A stretch of 64,000 bases of DNA from Acinetobacter sp. XH1741 (GTDB taxonomy: Bacteria > Pseudomonadota > Gammaproteobacteria > Pseudomonadales > Moraxellaceae), in contig NZ_CP157428.1 in NCBI RefSeq assembly GCF_041021895.1, forward strand, positions 2,170,001 to 2,234,000. The letters are read 5' to 3'. Of this stretch, positions 27,661 to 35,474 are shown one piece after another. Each line of letters begins with the position of its first letter. Position 1 is the first letter of the stretch. The translations under genes and the position numbers were made by a program. Below the pieces are notes generated by a model. It did no database searches, was not told the DNA's origin, and saw only the letters and a program-made list of their open reading frames with translations.

Positions 27661-29937
27661 ATGCTCAGTCGTCAATTAGAAGTATCATTACGTTTGGCTG
27701 TTAGCATGGCTCGTCAAAAGAGACATGAGTTTCTTACAGTTGAACACTTACTATTAGCCTTACTCGATAACGATTCGGCCGTGAATGCATTAAAGGCATG
27801 CGGGGCTGATATTGTTTCTTTACGTAAAGAATTAGAAGAATATGTAGAACAGCATACTCCTAAGCTTGGCGAAAATAGCGAGCAAGCTCCACATCCAACA
27901 GAAAGTTTCGACCGTATTTTGCAACGTGCGATTTTCCACGTGCAATCAAGTGGTGGTGATCGTACTGTTGAAGGTGCGGATGTTTTGGTCGCAATGTACT
28001 CAGAGCGTGATTCTTTCGCTGTTTACTTACTTAAACGTCATCAAATCAACCGATTGACTTTGACTCAATATTTGTCTCATGGGACACGTAAGGAAGAAGT
28101 TCAGGTTGAAGAAGAAGTTGAAGACATTGAAGGTGAAAGCAGCTCAGGCAATGCTGGGCCATTAGAACTTTATACGCTCAATTTAAATGTTGAAGCGCAA
28201 AAAGGAAAAACTGACCCACTTATTGGTCGTGAGAAAGAAATTGAGCGTACAGCACAAATTCTTTGCCGCCGTCGTAAAAACAACCCATTACTAGTGGGTG
28301 ACCCAGGTGTAGGTAAAACTTCAATTGCAGAAGGCCTTGCATGGCTTATTGTGAATGGTAAAGCACCAAAACCACTGAGCAATGCAGAAATTTACAGTCT
28401 AGACATCGGCGCATTGGTAGCTGGAACTAAATATCGTGGTGACTTTGAAAAGCGTTTAAAACAGTTGTTAAATGCTTTGAAGAAAAATCCAAATGCGATT
28501 TTATTCATTGATGAAATTCACATGATCATTGGTGCAGGTTCAAGTATGGGCAGCACAATGGATGCATCGAATCTCATTAAACCAGCTTTGGCAAATGGTA
28601 CTTTACGTTGCATTGGTTCAACGACTTTCCAAGAATATCGTCAGGTATTTGAAAAAGATCATGCGTTATCTCGTCGTTTCCAAAAAATTGACGTTAATGA
28701 ACCGAGTATTTCTGAAACGATTGATATTTTACGTGGCTTGAAAACTAAGTTTGAAGATTTCCACCACGTACAATATGACGATAAAGCTTTGGTTTCTGCG
28801 GTTGAACTTTCTGCAAAATTTATTAATGACCGTTTCTTGCCAGATAAAGCAATTGACGTGATTGATGAAGCAGGTGCACAGCGCCGTTTAAAAGCAGAGA
28901 GTGAAGATAGTTTAATTACTGTAGAAAACATTGAGGACATCGTTTCTAAAATTGCGCGTATTCCGCCTAAGACTGTGTCTAAGGATGATAAATCAGTGCT
29001 TGAAAATCTCGAGCGTGATCTAAAACGTGTTGTATTTGGTCAAGATGAAGCAATCACTGCATTGGCTTCGGCGATCAAGTTGTCACGTGCTGGTTTGAAA
29101 TCACCAGATAAGCCTGTTGGTAGCTTTGTATTTGCTGGCCCAACCGGTGTGGGTAAAACCGAAGTTACTAAGCAATTAGCCAAATTGTTAGGTGTCGAGC
29201 TGGTTCGTTTCGATATGTCTGAGTATATGGAACGTCATGCAGTTTCTCGCTTAATTGGTGCTCCTCCAGGTTATGTTGGTTATGACCAAGGTGGTTTACT
29301 CACAGACGCGATCCATAAAAATCCACATTGTGTTTTATTGCTGGATGAAATTGAGAAAGCACATCCTGATGTGTTTAACCTTTTATTGCAAATCATGGAT
29401 CACGGTGCGTTAACGGACAATAATGGTCGTAAGTCAGACTTCAGAAATGTCATTATTGTATTAACTACGAACATTGGTGCAGAAAGTATTTCTCGTGCAA
29501 GCATTGGATTTACAGAGCAAGACCATAGCTCAGATAACCAAGAAGCCATGAAACGTGCATTCTCTCCAGAGTTCCGCAACCGCCTAGATAGCGTTATTCA
29601 GTTCAAGGCATTACCAACTACAGTAATTGAATCTGTTGTTGATAAATTCTTAACAGAGTTGCAAGCTCAACTAGATGATAAACAAGTAGTACTTGATGTT
29701 GATCAAAGTGCACGTGATTGGTTAGCAACGAATGGTTATGACCGTTTAATGGGCGCACGTCCAATGCAACGTCTCATTCAAGAACACTTGAAGAAACCAT
29801 TGGCTGAAATGATTCTGTTTGGTGAACTTGCAGATCATGGTGGTAATGTAGCGGTATCAGTGAAACAAGAAGATGGTAAAGCGGTTGGTTTAAAACTTGA
29901 AGTTTTTGAAGATCACCATACGGCAGAACCAGCTTAA
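27661..29937 (+). CDS. clpA: ClpA ATPase subunit of ClpAP
   Basis: A 758-residue AAA+ unfoldase that feeds proteins to ClpP. An N-terminal Clp-N repeat domain (1-145) binds ClpS. D1 has GDPGVGKTS near residue 215 with a DEIHMIIGAG Walker B, and D2 has GPTGVGKTE near residue 496 with LLLDEIEKAH. A short acidic linker (about 140-160) separates the N domain from D1. It is probably co-transcribed with clpS, and possibly with ynfA, whose start follows the stop by 3 bases. Confidence 0.97.
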   Translation: MLSRQLEVSLRLAVSMARQKRHEFLTVEHLLLALLDNDSAVNALKACGADIVSLRKELEEYVEQHTPKLGENSEQAPHPTESFDRILQRAIFHVQSSGGDRTVEGADVLVAMYSERDSFAVYLLKRHQINRLTLTQYLSHGTRKEEVQVEEEVEDIEGESSSGNAGPLELYTLNLNVEAQKGKTDPLIGREKEIERTAQILCRRRKNNPLLVGDPGVGKTSIAEGLAWLIVNGKAPKPLSNAEIYSLDIGALVAGTKYRGDFEKRLKQLLNALKKNPNAILFIDEIHMIIGAGSSMGSTMDASNLIKPALANGTLRCIGSTTFQEYRQVFEKDHALSRRFQKIDVNEPSISETIDILRGLKTKFEDFHHVQYDDKALVSAVELSAKFINDRFLPDKAIDVIDEAGAQRRLKAESEDSLITVENIEDIVSKIARIPPKTVSKDDKSVLENLERDLKRVVFGQDEAITALASAIKLSRAGLKSPDKPVGSFVFAGPTGVGKTEVTKQLAKLLGVELVRFDMSEYMERHAVSRLIGAPPGYVGYDQGGLLTDAIHKNPHCVLLLDEIEKAHPDVFNLLLQIMDHGALTDNNGRKSDFRNVIIVLTTNIGAESISRASIGFTEQDHSSDNQEAMKRAFSPEFRNRLDSVIQFKALPTTVIESVVDKFLTELQAQLDDKQVVLDVDQSARDWLATNGYDRLMGARPMQRLIQEHLKKPLAEMILFGELADHGGNVAVSVKQEDGKAVGLKLEVFEDHHTAEPA

Positions 29938-29940
29938 TCT

Positions 29941-30303
29941 ATGTTAGTTGATAGTCTTTCTATAACCCGAATACTCAGCGTGTTCGGGTTATTTATTATT
30001 ACTGCAATCGCTGAAATTTTGGGCTGCTACTTTCCTTATCTTATTTTAAAAGAAGGGAAGTCGGCATGGCTATGGTTACCTACAGTGCTGAGTTTAGCGG
30101 TGTTTGTGTGGTTGCTCACCTTACATCCTGCGGCTTCTGGGCGAATTTATGCCGCCTATGGTGGTATTTATATTTTTACTGCACTTATGTGGTTGCGTTT
30201 TGTCGACCAGGTTGCTTTAACTCGCTGGGATCTTTTAGGTGGTTTAATTGTACTTTGTGGAGCTAGTTTGATTATTTTGCAGCCTCAGGGGCTAATTCGT
30301 TAA
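29941..30303 (+). CDS. YnfA-family (UPF0060) membrane protein
   Basis: A 120-residue protein with four membrane helices. The segments [32 protein letters not shown] and [15 protein letters not shown] are hallmarks of the YnfA family, which resembles small multidrug resistance transporters. The first about 13 residues have no match to the family. They coincide with a terminator-like hairpin, and an alternative GTG at 29980 lies within the hairpin loop. The N-terminus is therefore uncertain. Confidence 0.88.
29962..29996 (+). terminator. Terminator-like hairpin inside the 5' end of ynfA
   Basis: ATAACCCGAA pairs perfectly with TTCGGGTTAT across an 11-base loop, followed by TTATTATT. It lies 25-55 bases after the clpA stop and could end the clpSA message while overlapping the start of ynfA. 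Confidence 0.55.
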
Positions 30304-30362
30304 CCATAAAAATGGATAGTGAAATTTTAACTGTAAAATAAGATATTTTTCGCAAAAAATAC

Positions 30363-30391
30363 TTGTCAAACTCATCAACAATGCGTATTTT
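30363..30391 (+). promoter_or_regulatory. Promoter of the DAHP synthase leader
   Basis: TTGTCA and TATTTT separated by 17 bases, ending about 35 bases before the first leader peptide ATG. Confidence 0.6.
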
Positions 30392-30427
30392 AGAGTTAAG
30401 GAACATTTTTTAATATTTGAGATAAAG

Positions 30428-30484
30428 ATGTTAAATCAATCTGTGAATTCTAACGCTTACTTTTATTTCTGGCAATTTAGTTAG
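30428..30484 (+). CDS. Aromatic leader peptide 1
   Basis: An 18-codon reading frame, MLNQSVNSNAYFYFWQFS, in which six of eight consecutive codons (YFYFWQFS) are Tyr, Phe or Trp. It lies just before an attenuator terminator and upstream of the DAHP synthase gene. This is how leader peptides that sense charged aromatic tRNA look, as in the pheA and trp operons. Stalling at these codons would let GTTGCC just after the stop pair with GGCAAC in the terminator loop. The ribosome site is weak. Confidence 0.75.
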   Translation: MLNQSVNSNAYFYFWQFS

Positions 30485-30530
30485 TTGCCTGAGCGTATTC
30501 GGGCACGAAAGTTGCCCATCACAGTTAATA

Positions 30531-30560
30531 CCTGATCGGCAACCCCGATCAGGTTTTTTT
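30531..30560 (+). terminator. Attenuator terminator upstream of DAHP synthase gene
   Basis: CCTGATCGG pairs perfectly with CCGATCAGG across a short CAACC loop, followed by seven T. The loop contains GGCAAC, complementary to GTTGCC found twice upstream (after the leader stop and about 25 bases later), so competing pairings are possible. Confidence 0.85.
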
Positions 30561-30593
30561 ATGCTTTATCTTTTTCAAATCGAGGAAATCAAA

Positions 30594-30686
30594 ATGAACA
30601 ACATGACTTATTCATACTTTAGCAACTTTTATTGGTTTTACTTTTGCCTACCTTTGCCAACGAATAGATCCAAAACGCTCAAATAA
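30594..30686 (+). CDS. Aromatic leader peptide 2
   Basis: A 30-codon frame with a good ribosome site (GAGG, 8 bases upstream). Codons 6-17 read YSYFSNFYWFYF: nine of twelve are aromatic. It starts about 35 bases after the T tract of the first attenuator and stops 41 bases before the DAHP synthase ATG. A 7-bp hairpin (GGACTGA / TCAGTCC, 30693-30713) lies between its stop and the ribosome site of the enzyme gene. The arrangement suggests a second layer of control by aromatic tRNA charging, perhaps on translation. Both the peptide and its role are inferred from sequence. Confidence 0.7.
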   Translation: MNNMTYSYFSNFYWFYFCLPLPTNRSKTLK

Positions 30687-30727
30687 ATGATCGGACTGAT
30701 TCGGTTTCAGTCCAAAGGAAAAGACCA

Positions 30728-31783
30728 ATGAATGCTTTAAATACTTTACTAACTCAAAGTAATACAAAAGAAACACCAGTTAGTTTGCCTGTCCAGTTAA
30801 AAGCTAAATATCCGCTTGTGCAGACCTTCGCACGTCAAATTGCAGAACATCGCCAAATTATTCAAAATATTCTTGCTGGTAAAGATCAGCGTTTAATGGT
30901 TATTACAGGACCATGTTCAATTCATGACCCAGTTGCGGTTCTTGAATACGCAGAAAAATTGCAAAAATTACAAGAAAAAGTAAAAGATCAAATATTCATT
31001 GTTATGCGTACTTATATTGAAAAACCTCGTACAACCGTGGGTTGGAAGGGTTTTATGTATGACCCAAATCTAGATGGTTCATCTAATTTACAGCTAGGTT
31101 TAGAAAAATCACGTGAGCTTTATTTACAAATTATTGAAAAAGGCTTGCCGATTGCCAGTGAAATTTTAAGTCCAATGGCAACTGGTTATTTTGATGATTT
31201 ATTGGCTTGGGGTGCAATTGGTGCCCGTACTAGCGAATCTCAAATTCACCGCGAAATCTCAAGTCATATGCCATACAGTATTGGTTTCAAGAATGGTACA
31301 GATGGTTCAATTCAAATTGCACTAGATGCTATTCAGTCAGCACAAAATGAACATCAATTTTTAGGTATGAATCAGCAAGGTTTGCCTTCAGTTATTCAAA
31401 GTGCTGGGAATCCATTACCACATTTGATTTTACGTGGGGCAAATCATGGTCCTAACTATGATTTAGCTTCAATTCAGGCAATACGGGAAAAATACAAACA
31501 AAATCTTCCTGCATTAGTCATTGATTGTAGTCATGGCAATAGTGGTAAAGACCCTTTACGTCAGCCAGAGGTTTTACAGCAAATCGTTGCTGAGCGTTTA
31601 AAAACTCAGGTGAAGGGTGTGATGATTGAAAGCCATTTGGTTGATGGAAACCAAAAGATTTCATGTGAAATGACTTATGGTCAGTCAGTAACTGATGGTT
31701 GTTTGGGCTGGGATAAAACTGAACAACTTTTGCTAAATGTTGCTGAACAATTAAAAGAAAATGAGTTAGCTCATTCTGCTTAA
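30728..31783 (+). CDS. 3-deoxy-7-phosphoheptulonate (DAHP) synthase
   Basis: A 351-residue class I DAHP synthase, the first enzyme of the shikimate pathway, joining phosphoenolpyruvate and erythrose 4-phosphate. MVITGPCSIHDPVAVLEYA near residue 57, MRTYIEKPRTTVGWKGF near residue 90 and IDCSHGNSGKDPLRQP near residue 265 are the family signatures. Which aromatic amino acid inhibits it (AroF, AroG or AroH type) cannot be told by eye. Control by attenuation is likely given the leader. AAAGGA precedes the ATG. Confidence 0.96.
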   Translation: MNALNTLLTQSNTKETPVSLPVQLKAKYPLVQTFARQIAEHRQIIQNILAGKDQRLMVITGPCSIHDPVAVLEYAEKLQKLQEKVKDQIFIVMRTYIEKPRTTVGWKGFMYDPNLDGSSNLQLGLEKSRELYLQIIEKGLPIASEILSPMATGYFDDLLAWGAIGARTSESQIHREISSHMPYSIGFKNGTDGSIQIALDAIQSAQNEHQFLGMNQQGLPSVIQSAGNPLPHLILRGANHGPNYDLASIQAIREKYKQNLPALVIDCSHGNSGKDPLRQPEVLQQIVAERLKTQVKGVMIESHLVDGNQKISCEMTYGQSVTDGCLGWDKTEQLLLNVAEQLKENELAHSA

Positions 31784-31803
31784 TGAATTGTAGATTTAAA
31801 AAA

Positions 31804-31830
31804 GGATCTGTTTTAGCAGATCCTTTTTTT
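31804..31830. terminator. Terminator after the DAHP synthase gene
   Basis: GGATCTG / CAGATCC with a TTTTAG loop and seven T. The converging hydrolase gene ends at 31834 and can use it too. Confidence 0.93.
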
Positions 31831-31833
31831 ATT

Positions 31834-32751
31834 TTAAGAAGCTTGTTTAAGTTCAGACAAGAACGTCGTGATTTCATGACCGAATTTTTTAGGTTCGGTT
31901 AATAATGGTGTATGGCCTGAATGTTCAAAATAAATTGCTTTTGAATGTTCAACGCTATGTGCAATAAGTGTTTGACCAGTTTCCGGATAAAGTGTCGAAT
32001 TACGGCCAATAAAGAAAGTAGTCGGGCACTGTAATTGTTGAAGAGCATCACGATAATCTTCATTGTGAAAAAGATAATTTTCGACATACCAAAATAAGTA
32101 GTCTAAACGTTGAATTGGTAAGAGATATTTCTGTAAAAAAGGTTGTTTTAAAGCTGTTTTAAAAACAAAAGGGCTAAATGGATTGCTGCTTTGTAATTCA
32201 ATAAAATCTACCCATAAACGCACGAGCTCCTGACGATCGGGAAGCGATAGTTCATAAAGATATTTAGCATTTTTGTGTTTTGATAATAATTGATAAATAT
32301 CATTGAGCAGTTGTTTGAATTGATCATGTAAAGGGCCGAATAAGCCATATTGCCATGTCGAATCTACTGATATTTTAGGTGTCTGATCTATGTGTAAATA
32401 TGCTTTTAACTGCTGAGCCAGATGAGCATGCTTCATACCATGCATTGCAGTGGTAGCACCCATTGAATAGCCCATTAAAATAAAGTTATCAAGCTTTAGT
32501 TGCTCAATTAAATGCGCAACATCTAGCCAGTGGCTTGATATTGCATCTTGCTCGGGAATTGCACAGTTTTTTGATCCGCCAAATCCACGCCAGTCAGGGA
32601 TAATAAACTCATATTCTTTACGATTTGCATAGATAAAGGGTAGCCATTGCCAACTCTGCATGCCTAAGCCAGATAATACTAATACCGGTTCACCACGACC
32701 AACACGGCGTACAAATAAATTTTCCTGATCGGGCATGGTGTAATAAGGCAT
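31834..32751 (-). CDS. Alpha/beta hydrolase
   Basis: A 305-residue hydrolase. The N-terminal VLVLSGLGMQSWQWLPF gives the oxyanion-hole strand, and the nucleophile Ser is in MGYSMGATTAMHG (GxSxG, near residue 95). The catalytic His is probably in FEHSGHTPLLTEP near the C-terminus. No signal peptide is present. The substrate is unknown. It follows the PadR gene by 2 bases, so the two form an operon, divergent from the fadH cluster and probably under the same regulator. Confidence 0.88.
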   Translation of the reverse strand: MPYYTMPDQENLFVRRVGRGEPVLVLSGLGMQSWQWLPFIYANRKEYEFIIPDWRGFGGSKNCAIPEQDAISSHWLDVAHLIEQLKLDNFILMGYSMGATTAMHGMKHAHLAQQLKAYLHIDQTPKISVDSTWQYGLFGPLHDQFKQLLNDIYQLLSKHKNAKYLYELSLPDRQELVRLWVDFIELQSSNPFSPFVFKTALKQPFLQKYLLPIQRLDYLFWYVENYLFHNEDYRDALQQLQCPTTFFIGRNSTLYPETGQTLIAHSVEHSKAIYFEHSGHTPLLTEPKKFGHEITTFLSELKQAS

Positions 32752-32753
32752 GG

Positions 32754-33314
32754 TTATTCTCCAGATACGTTATCTTGAGTAAAAATTTTTAATTGAGGGA
32801 TGACCTGCTCTAACCATTTGATCCACTCAGTTTCCATGGTAATACCGAGTTCTAATATCATTTTATGGATATATAACACTCGGTTATCTAAACCATTGCT
32901 GTCTTTAAAATCTTTATCATAGATACTTTGGTAAAGCTTGAGCTTTTCTTGGTGTAAACCAAGATGTCGTAACAGTTCGGGTAATATTTGATTATTGCCC
33001 AATTGTGCCTCAGCACGCAATCTTACCATTAAGTCATCTCTAAGCTGCGCGGGTTCACTTTGCTGTGTCATCCATGAAGCAAGCTCTATACGCCCAAGTT
33101 GTTCGACCTGATAAGTTTTCTTTCGGCCACTATCCATCTCATTTTCTAAAGTGGAAACCCAGCCTTTTTTAAGCATGTTATTGAGTTCACGATAAATTTG
33201 CTGGTGTGTGGCGTTCCAGAAAAAGCCCATCGAACGGTCAAAGCGGCGAGCGAGTTCAAAGCCTGTACTTGGTCGTTCTAATAAACTGGTCAGTAAAACA
33301 TGAGGAAGTGACAT
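32754..33314 (-). CDS. PadR-family transcriptional regulator
   Basis: A 186-residue regulator with an N-terminal PadR winged helix: LLERPSTGFELARRFDRSMGFFWNATHQQIYRELNNMLKKGWV is the usual family start, covering helix-turn-helix and wing. A C-terminal helical dimerisation region (Vir-C type, about 90-180) follows. PadR proteins mostly repress a neighbouring operon and respond to a small aromatic or fatty ligand. It is divergent from fadH, with two palindromes between them that are likely its operators. Confidence 0.92.
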   Translation of the reverse strand: MSLPHVLLTSLLERPSTGFELARRFDRSMGFFWNATHQQIYRELNNMLKKGWVSTLENEMDSGRKKTYQVEQLGRIELASWMTQQSEPAQLRDDLMVRLRAEAQLGNNQILPELLRHLGLHQEKLKLYQSIYDKDFKDSNGLDNRVLYIHKMILELGITMETEWIKWLEQVIPQLKIFTQDNVSGE

Positions 33315-33358
33315 GGCAATCCATTTGTAAGCAAAAGTAAAGTGTGACTCATTAGATT

Positions 33359-33374
33359 ATGCAACATGTTGCAT
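33359..33374. promoter_or_regulatory. PadR operator candidate, site 1
   Basis: ATGCAACATGTTGCAT is a perfect 16-base palindrome in the 135-base gap between the divergent PadR and fadH genes. Confidence 0.75.
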
Positions 33375-33400
33375 AAAAGTCAAAATTTGATTATAAATTT

Positions 33401-33416
33401 GTGCAACAAGTTGCAT
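33401..33416. promoter_or_regulatory. PadR operator candidate, site 2
   Basis: GTGCAACAAGTTGCAT repeats the site 1 palindrome with two changes. The centres are 42 bases apart, four helical turns, so two dimers would bind the same face of the DNA. Confidence 0.75.
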
Positions 33417-33419
33417 TAA

Positions 33420-35474
<2,055 letters not shown>

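Follow-up and report, generated by a model that had tools for sequence, protein, structure and literature searches.

Why should one biosynthetic gene be preceded by two aromatic leader peptides, one after the other? The question is raised by a stretch of 64,000 nucleotides from Acinetobacter sp. XH1741 (contig NZ_CP157428.1, positions 2,170,001 to 2,234,000; hereafter the window), in which two short frames rich in aromatic codons, termed leader 1 and leader 2, lie upstream of a gene for a class I 3-deoxy-D-arabino-heptulosonate 7-phosphate (DAHP) synthase. An original prediction, made from the letters of the window, took both frames for sensors acting on this enzyme, the first on transcription and the second perhaps on translation or as a second transcription attenuator. 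The tandem leaders are real and, within the sampled part of the genus, conserved, and the reading that we prefer, with fair confidence, is that one DAHP synthase gene would be under two attenuators in series, the first of transcription and the second of translation, both sensing the same three tRNA classes.

Within the genus, 143 of 149 genomes had an orthologue-level best match to the enzyme (55–100% identity), and G029–G032, G076 and G128 had paralogue-level matches only. The upstream regions compared here also number 143 (30 + 65 named loci + 40 + 8), which is a coincidence: they represent part of the orthologue-bearing genomes, many of them are one genome present twice, and 109 are distinct by sequence. 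The 65 named loci of relatives are all from Acinetobacter, the nearest among those listed being A. nosocomialis and A. seifertii. Leader 1 (30428–30484, + strand, ATG to TAG; 18 codons, MLNQSVNSNAYFYFWQFS) contains the motif YFYFWQF, just as predicted, and is found with a terminator in all 109 distinct regions, every one of the 109 peptides holding Phe, Tyr and Trp. Leader 2 (30594–30686, + strand, ATG to TAA; 30 codons, MNNMTYSYFSNFYWFYFCLPLPTNRSKTLK) follows a ribosome site that had likewise been foreseen, GAGG at 30582–30585 (read by eye). Defined as a frame whose stop lies no more than 60 nt upstream or 30 nt downstream of the enzyme start, an aromatic-rich leader 2 is present in 108/109 regions, and 103 of the 108 peptides combine all three aromatic residues (L091, L092, L109, L110 and L112 have no Trp). 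The exception is Acinetobacter sp. WU_MDCI_Axc73 (L094), in which the frame is broken, at −134 to −71 before the enzyme, possibly through an assembly error.

The alignment across Acinetobacter, which the original prediction had proposed as a check, gave conserved frames and aromatic codons with drifting flanks for both leaders, rather than frames broken or poor in aromatic codons. Most regions carry the leader-2 core SYFSNxYWFYF or a near variant, and deep branches retain aromatic richness only. In pairwise counts of single-base codon differences among distinct cores (44 for leader 1 and 49 for leader 2, not independent), the ratio of nonsynonymous to synonymous changes was 0.65 for leader 1 and 1.14 for leader 2; as these values are well under a neutral value of about 3, a rough figure that we set ourselves, both leaders look translated. 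Two ATG frames of 10–50 codons with at least 6 aromatics in 10 codons arose in 0/2000 dinucleotide shuffles of 30304–30727. It might be argued that leader 2 is no sensor at all, being conserved only as RNA or surviving as a relic, since across most of the genus the core is strongly conserved at the nucleotide level, some third positions included. We regard this as very improbable, given an intact frame in all regions except L094, the ratio of 1.14, and an aromatic richness that persists while the sequence of the deep branches drifts. An arrest peptide is not favoured either, because what the deep branches conserve is aromatic richness and not sequence. The ending of leader 2, GCTCAAATAA (30666–30686), is nearly invariant except in deep branches; it is often preceded by the Arg codon AGA, and the peptide length from core to end is variable.

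Judged on its anatomy, leader 1 is almost certainly a trp-type transcription attenuator, and the predicted action of the first sensor on transcription is thus borne out as far as sequence and folding models can tell. The attenuators of trp, pheA, his and other operons likewise consist of a short frame rich in codons for the product, alternative hairpins and an intrinsic terminator before the gene. In the window, a scan placed the intrinsic terminator with its T run at 30530–30560 (+ strand); its stem has 10 bp rather than the predicted 9, and the predicted seven T hold if the last stem base is included. Between the last codons of leader 1 and this terminator lie segments A to E (all + strand), which are nearly invariant and each complementary to their neighbours: A (TGGCAA, the Trp-Gln codons, 30470–30475) can pair with B (TTGCC, 30485–30489), B with A or C (GGGCA, 30501–30505), C with B or D (GTTGCCC, 30511–30517), and D with C for termination or, for antitermination, with E (GGCAAC, 30538–30543), which lies within the 5' arm and loop of the terminator.

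Alignments of 58 of the 109 regions, at most 93% alike, agree with both folds. In the terminating fold (A:B, C:D and terminator), 97.8% of cells are paired and 13 cells changed on both sides, a number reached by 0/500 shuffles; the terminator cells are 99.7% paired, with three pairs changed on both sides. In the antiterminating fold (B:C, D:E), 94.6% of cells are paired. Folding of the window's leader 1 gave a z of −5.3. Folding was also modelled with a ribosome footprint on the leader. With the ribosome on the aromatic codons and the nascent RNA ending after E, the mean probability over the 109 regions was 0.88 for D:E and about 0.86 for B:C; with the ribosome at the leader-1 stop and the same RNA end, it was 0.48 for D:E and 0.29 for C:D. 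When B and C were shuffled as a control, D:E was 0.85–0.88 at both ribosome positions. In 60/109 regions, moving the ribosome from the stop to the aromatic codons raised D:E by more than 0.2, and the opposite direction was seen in none.

The course of events suggested by these features is that of a classical attenuator. When any aromatic aminoacyl-tRNA is scarce, the ribosome would slow on the Tyr-Phe-Tyr-Phe-Trp codons of leader 1 and cover segment A, allowing B:C to form and leaving D free for E, and RNA polymerase would pass before the terminator forms. When the tRNAs are charged, the ribosome at the leader-1 stop would cover B, C would pair with D, and the terminator would form. From the anatomy and the models together we infer stalling at both leaders and the direction and size of both effects. 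The transcript would start before leader 1, as suggested by a promoter-like motif (TTGTCA-N17-TATTTT, 30363–30391, + strand; scan and conservation) that recurs in 107/109 distinct regions and is missing in L110 and L112; promoter-like matches overall showed no excess in the scan (8 vs 7.5 in shuffles).

Some results weigh against this picture. Counted as pairs, the changes on both sides in the terminating fold were matched by 48/500 shuffles, and covariation of the antiterminating fold across the 58 aligned regions was no higher than in shuffles; near-invariance is expected of segments that have two partners, however, and would leave little evidence of covariation. The window's own antiterminator changes little with ribosome position (0.99 vs 0.84–0.98), and the completed terminator has a mean probability of 0.92–0.995 wherever the ribosome stands. 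Because the completed terminator wins everywhere, the switch would have to be kinetic, decided before the 3' arm emerges. Known attenuators also decide before the 3' arm of the terminator emerges.

Further pairings were seen around leader 1. AACGC near its Asn-Ala codons (30453–30459) pairs with GCGTT-like letters at 30490–30496, between B and C, and lengthens the A:B stem; this pairing matches or beats 95% of shuffles in 33/58 regions. The first codons of leader 1 often hold CAACC, the complement of GGTTG in segment D; in RNA with an untranslated leader 1, this match might tip the balance towards termination.

What might a second leader add? Of the two roles suggested for it, that of a second transcription attenuator was rejected, because a scan of the window found no + strand terminator between 30562 and 30727. 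Leader 2 could alternatively control transcription via Rho or polymerase pausing: leaders without terminators exist, and Rho has been suggested as one possibility for the cys leaders of Actinobacteria in the passages available from one paper (PMC1262725). As a terminator is absent after leader 2 in the window, we consider this quite improbable. The other suggested role, on translation, fared better, in that the RNA of leader 2 is predicted to pair with the ribosome site of the enzyme in the window lineage, and leader 2 is likely a translational sensor. In the minimum-energy fold of 30580–30766, 30621–24, 30628–39 and 30641–46 pair with 30733–36, 30721–32 and 30713–18, respectively, forming a duplex of 22 base pairs that hides the Shine-Dalgarno sequence of the enzyme (AAAGGA, 30714–30719, + strand), the AUG, and codons 2–3. 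The anti-ribosome-site strand corresponds to leader-2 codons Ser10–Cys18 (30621–30646, + strand), and was delineated by this fold, a codon-shuffle test and robustness runs. In a read-through RNA, these codons would by default be bound to the Shine-Dalgarno sequence, AUG and codons 2–3; a ribosome slowed on them would keep the duplex open and the enzyme would be made, and a ribosome reaching the leader-2 stop would let the duplex close.

The strength of this prediction differs between lineages, which we grouped as the window lineage (16 regions), a YWFYF group (33), a haemolyticus-type (24), a variant core (20) and deep-branching regions (15). Footprint folding covered 97 regions (11 deep ones were excluded and L094 was dropped, leaving 18/20 of the variant core and 6/15 of the deep group), with an assumed footprint extending 15 nt upstream and about 12 nt downstream of the first base of the A-site codon. 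From Shine-Dalgarno to AUG, the 97 regions were unpaired at 0.37 in the free RNA, 0.54 with the ribosome on the aromatic codons and 0.31 at the stop, compared with 0.45–0.48, 0.47–0.50 and 0.43–0.46, respectively, in four codon-shuffled sets. The window lineage showed the sharpest response (0.14 free, 0.55 aromatic, 0.14 stop), its four codon-shuffled sets giving 0.48–0.55 at all ribosome states. The same three values were 0.33, 0.54 and 0.29 in the YWFYF group, 0.49, 0.54 and 0.33 in the haemolyticus-type, 0.44, 0.49 and 0.39 in the variant core, and 0.55, 0.58 and 0.57 in the deep regions. Compared with a ribosome at the stop, one on the aromatic codons left the site more open by over 0.1 in 16/16 regions of the window lineage, 24/33 of the YWFYF group, 17/24 of the haemolyticus-type, 8/18 of the variant core and 1/6 of the deep regions; the reverse was seen in 0, 1, 0, 1 and 1 regions, respectively. 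By default, folding sequesters the ribosome site in 16/16 regions of the window lineage and not in the haemolyticus-type or the deep branches. Tested against 300 codon shuffles, duplex energy ranked ahead of 95% or more of them in 39/108 regions, including all 16 of the window lineage and 20/33 of the YWFYF group; related sequences are not independent, so the 39 regions are not 39 separate confirmations. Opening in the window was robust in 7/8 combinations of transcript ends, with three footprints and at three temperatures.

As with leader 1, there are observations on the other side. The same 95% level of duplex energy was reached by 0/24 regions of the haemolyticus-type, 2/20 of the variant core and 1/15 of the deep branches, and in A. 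baylyi (L061), where both leaders are present, the duplex is no better than shuffles. With a transcript of 30561–30900, opening in the window nearly disappears (0.17 free, 0.21–0.26 stalled). When the window's 37 start regions are ranked by pairing with leader 2, that of the enzyme comes second, level with the third (the leader string used for this ranking began one base into codon 2, which hardly affects the RNA duplex), and the whole leader-2 region folds only modestly beyond shuffles (z −1.65). A genus-wide search for anti-Shine-Dalgarno pairing, which took in every pair of columns in an alignment of 92 sequences, yielded short weak helices only, besides the hairpin described below, and we therefore claim the duplex for some lineages only. 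As a modelled mechanism, it is well supported in the window lineage and in part of the rest; in lineages without it, control of translation may still be the purpose of leader 2.

The hairpin in question, GGACTG...CAGTCC (30693–30713, + strand), lies between the leader-2 stop and the ribosome site, directly before AAAGGA, where the original prediction had put it. In a set of 60 regions, at most 90% alike and with at least 24 nt between leader-2 stop and ribosome site, 5 of its 6 pairs changed on both sides, and 0/500 shuffles did as well on any of the five measures. The hairpin ends where the ribosome site begins and does not itself mask it. In L103–L107, L110 and L113–L117 no such hairpin was seen, and the leader-2 stop is near the start or inside the enzyme gene: it begins 19–20 nt before the start in L103–L107 and 11 nt before it in L110. 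In the deep branch L113–L117, leader 2 has 40–55 codons and overlaps the enzyme gene in another frame, its stop beginning 22 nt inside.

With either a hairpin or a short spacing, the leader-2 stop and the enzyme start are near each other either way, and this could be taken to mean that ribosomes ending leader 2 re-initiate at the enzyme, the covarying hairpin joining both sites and the hairpin-less regions having their stop close to or past the start. Such positive coupling is unlikely in our judgement, because starved cells, in which ribosomes stall, would then make less enzyme, the opposite of what is needed, because the enzyme has a good Shine-Dalgarno sequence of its own, and because the leader-2 duplex of the window lineage would be left unexplained. 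The same spacings, 19–20 nt or 11 nt before the start and 22 nt inside the gene, invite another explanation, by which ribosomes finishing leader 2 cover the enzyme start site and stalling upstream exposes it. In the rtpA leader of Bacillus subtilis, a terminating ribosome occludes the start site, and upstream stalling exposes it. In the window, however, 44 nt lie between the beginning of the leader-2 stop and the AUG, and 30 nt between it and the Shine-Dalgarno sequence, too great a distance for a single footprint to reach directly over the site, and we give this explanation, too, only a small probability. We thus return to control of translation by the sensing codons themselves. It is possible, if somewhat doubtful, that the two-stage check by successive leaders is genus-wide, transcription being gated first and translation second, the latter by sensing codons that double as anti-ribosome-site strand, and both stages responding to Phe, Tyr and Trp together, and that the action of leader 2 has been rewired between lineages as duplex, hairpin or overlap with the enzyme gene.

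The tandem arrangement is a variation on known attenuation mechanisms, and new as a variant. Leader 1 differs from trp-type attenuators in containing all three aromatics (109/109) and in having a second leader downstream. Like leader 1, a putative Phe-Tyr-Phe leader precedes a DAHP synthase gene, aroF, in Corynebacterium glutamicum, where attenuation has been proposed (PMC4046766, in the passages available). For Shewanella, the accessible passages of PMC2659441 predict a regulatory RNA before aroF and mention, with E. coli as the reference, an attenuator that responds to tyr-tRNA. The closest likeness to leader 2 of the window lineage is the LEU element of Actinobacteria, in which a run of Leu codons was proposed to pair with the Shine-Dalgarno sequence of leuA (PMC1262725), so that sensing codons of a leader peptide would pair with that of the enzyme, although a transcription attenuator ahead of it is not mentioned in the passages at hand. 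The mechanism of LEU is unsettled, because mutating the leader had some effect inconsistent with classical attenuation, or codon mutations had no effect, and a regulatory protein was favoured (PMC1262725). In B. subtilis rtpA, which encodes anti-TRAP, one gene responds twice to a single kind of uncharged tRNA, in transcription first and in translation afterwards (PMC4027176; PMC11255114, both in excerpt), and tandem sensing is the subject named in the title of a 2003 paper by Chen and Yanofsky; by contrast, rtpA has a T-box first and senses Trp, whereas here both sensors would be leader peptides reading all three aromatics. Two leader peptides also precede ermB, with translational control based on stalling (PMC8274638), but this system responds to antibiotics rather than to amino acid supply, and a transcription attenuator is not mentioned in the portion available. 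Our searches of the open-licence literature, which does not cover the classic comparative papers on proteobacterial attenuators, brought up no report of leader peptides in series that control first the transcription and then the translation of a single biosynthetic gene, and none of this Acinetobacter leader; in an Acinetobacter RNA paper (PMC11472050), only an unrelated passage matched.

The enzyme (351 amino acids, 30728–31783, + strand) belongs to the AroFGH family of class I DAHP synthases, scoring 419.9 bits against TIGR00034 (cut-off 173.2) and also matching PF00793; it fell below the AroG- and AroH-specific NCBIfam cut-offs, and for this reason we do not name it AroG. Its paralogue, a second DAHP synthase about 48% identical, is encoded in the same genome (G000:C1:2579224-2580222), and no leader of this kind was found in about 700 bases upstream of it, where two aromatic-containing short frames pass a looser filter only. 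In other genera of the family, sampled genomes with a match have one match each, at a similar level. Upstream of the leaders (27661–30303) lie clpA and a YnfA-family gene, and downstream (31834–35474) an alpha/beta hydrolase, a PadR-like regulator and an FMN/FAD oxidoreductase; among these neighbours, none resembles another gene of the pathway.

A leader-1 model found one strong match in the genome itself (E 3e-23); the runner-up (E 0.3) overlaps it on the other strand. In a family sample of 119 genomes, 25 Acinetobacter genomes gave strong matches (E 5e-17 or better), and Acinetobacter G076, which also lacks the isozyme, gave none; outside Acinetobacter, six genomes gave weak matches (E 1e-4 to 0.06), and 68 matchless genomes are unlisted. 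Across 194 genomes of the order, the only strong match was in the genome itself, and seven were weak (best 6e-4); the family and order searches used stricter filters, by which some weak matches were lost. The best match outside the genus from each of the two samples (L182 and L183) was rejected as a leader: they have a terminator hairpin and no aromatic-rich ATG frame in the part scanned, the frames of L182 rich in Phe and Tyr starting with GTG or TTG only. No aromatic leader pair was found in the 420 bases scanned at 18 outgroup loci of the family (L144–L161; enzyme 46–49% identical), where single short ATG frames pass the filter in L147 and L155. A plain aromatic-codon pattern was uninformative on both strands of the own genome (125 matches vs 140 for a reversed control). 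Searching Rfam with 29800–32100 at E up to 1 gave four weak matches, none to an amino-acid leader family such as Trp_leader or Phe_leader; the best by E-value was Hrs10 on the opposite strand, with a score of 28.9 vs a gathering score of 108.

The opening step of aromatic synthesis is classically seen as subject to feedback through repressors and inhibition of the enzyme. In Acinetobacter, leader 1 probably decides whether the message is completed and leader 2 whether it is read, so that the aromatic supply would be checked twice. If this is true, a double ribosome-based sensor of all three end products would be a new form of regulation for such an isozyme, and a natural two-stage genetic circuit would be open to measurement, accompanied by roughly a hundred natural sequence variants that have a nearly fixed first stage and differ in the second.
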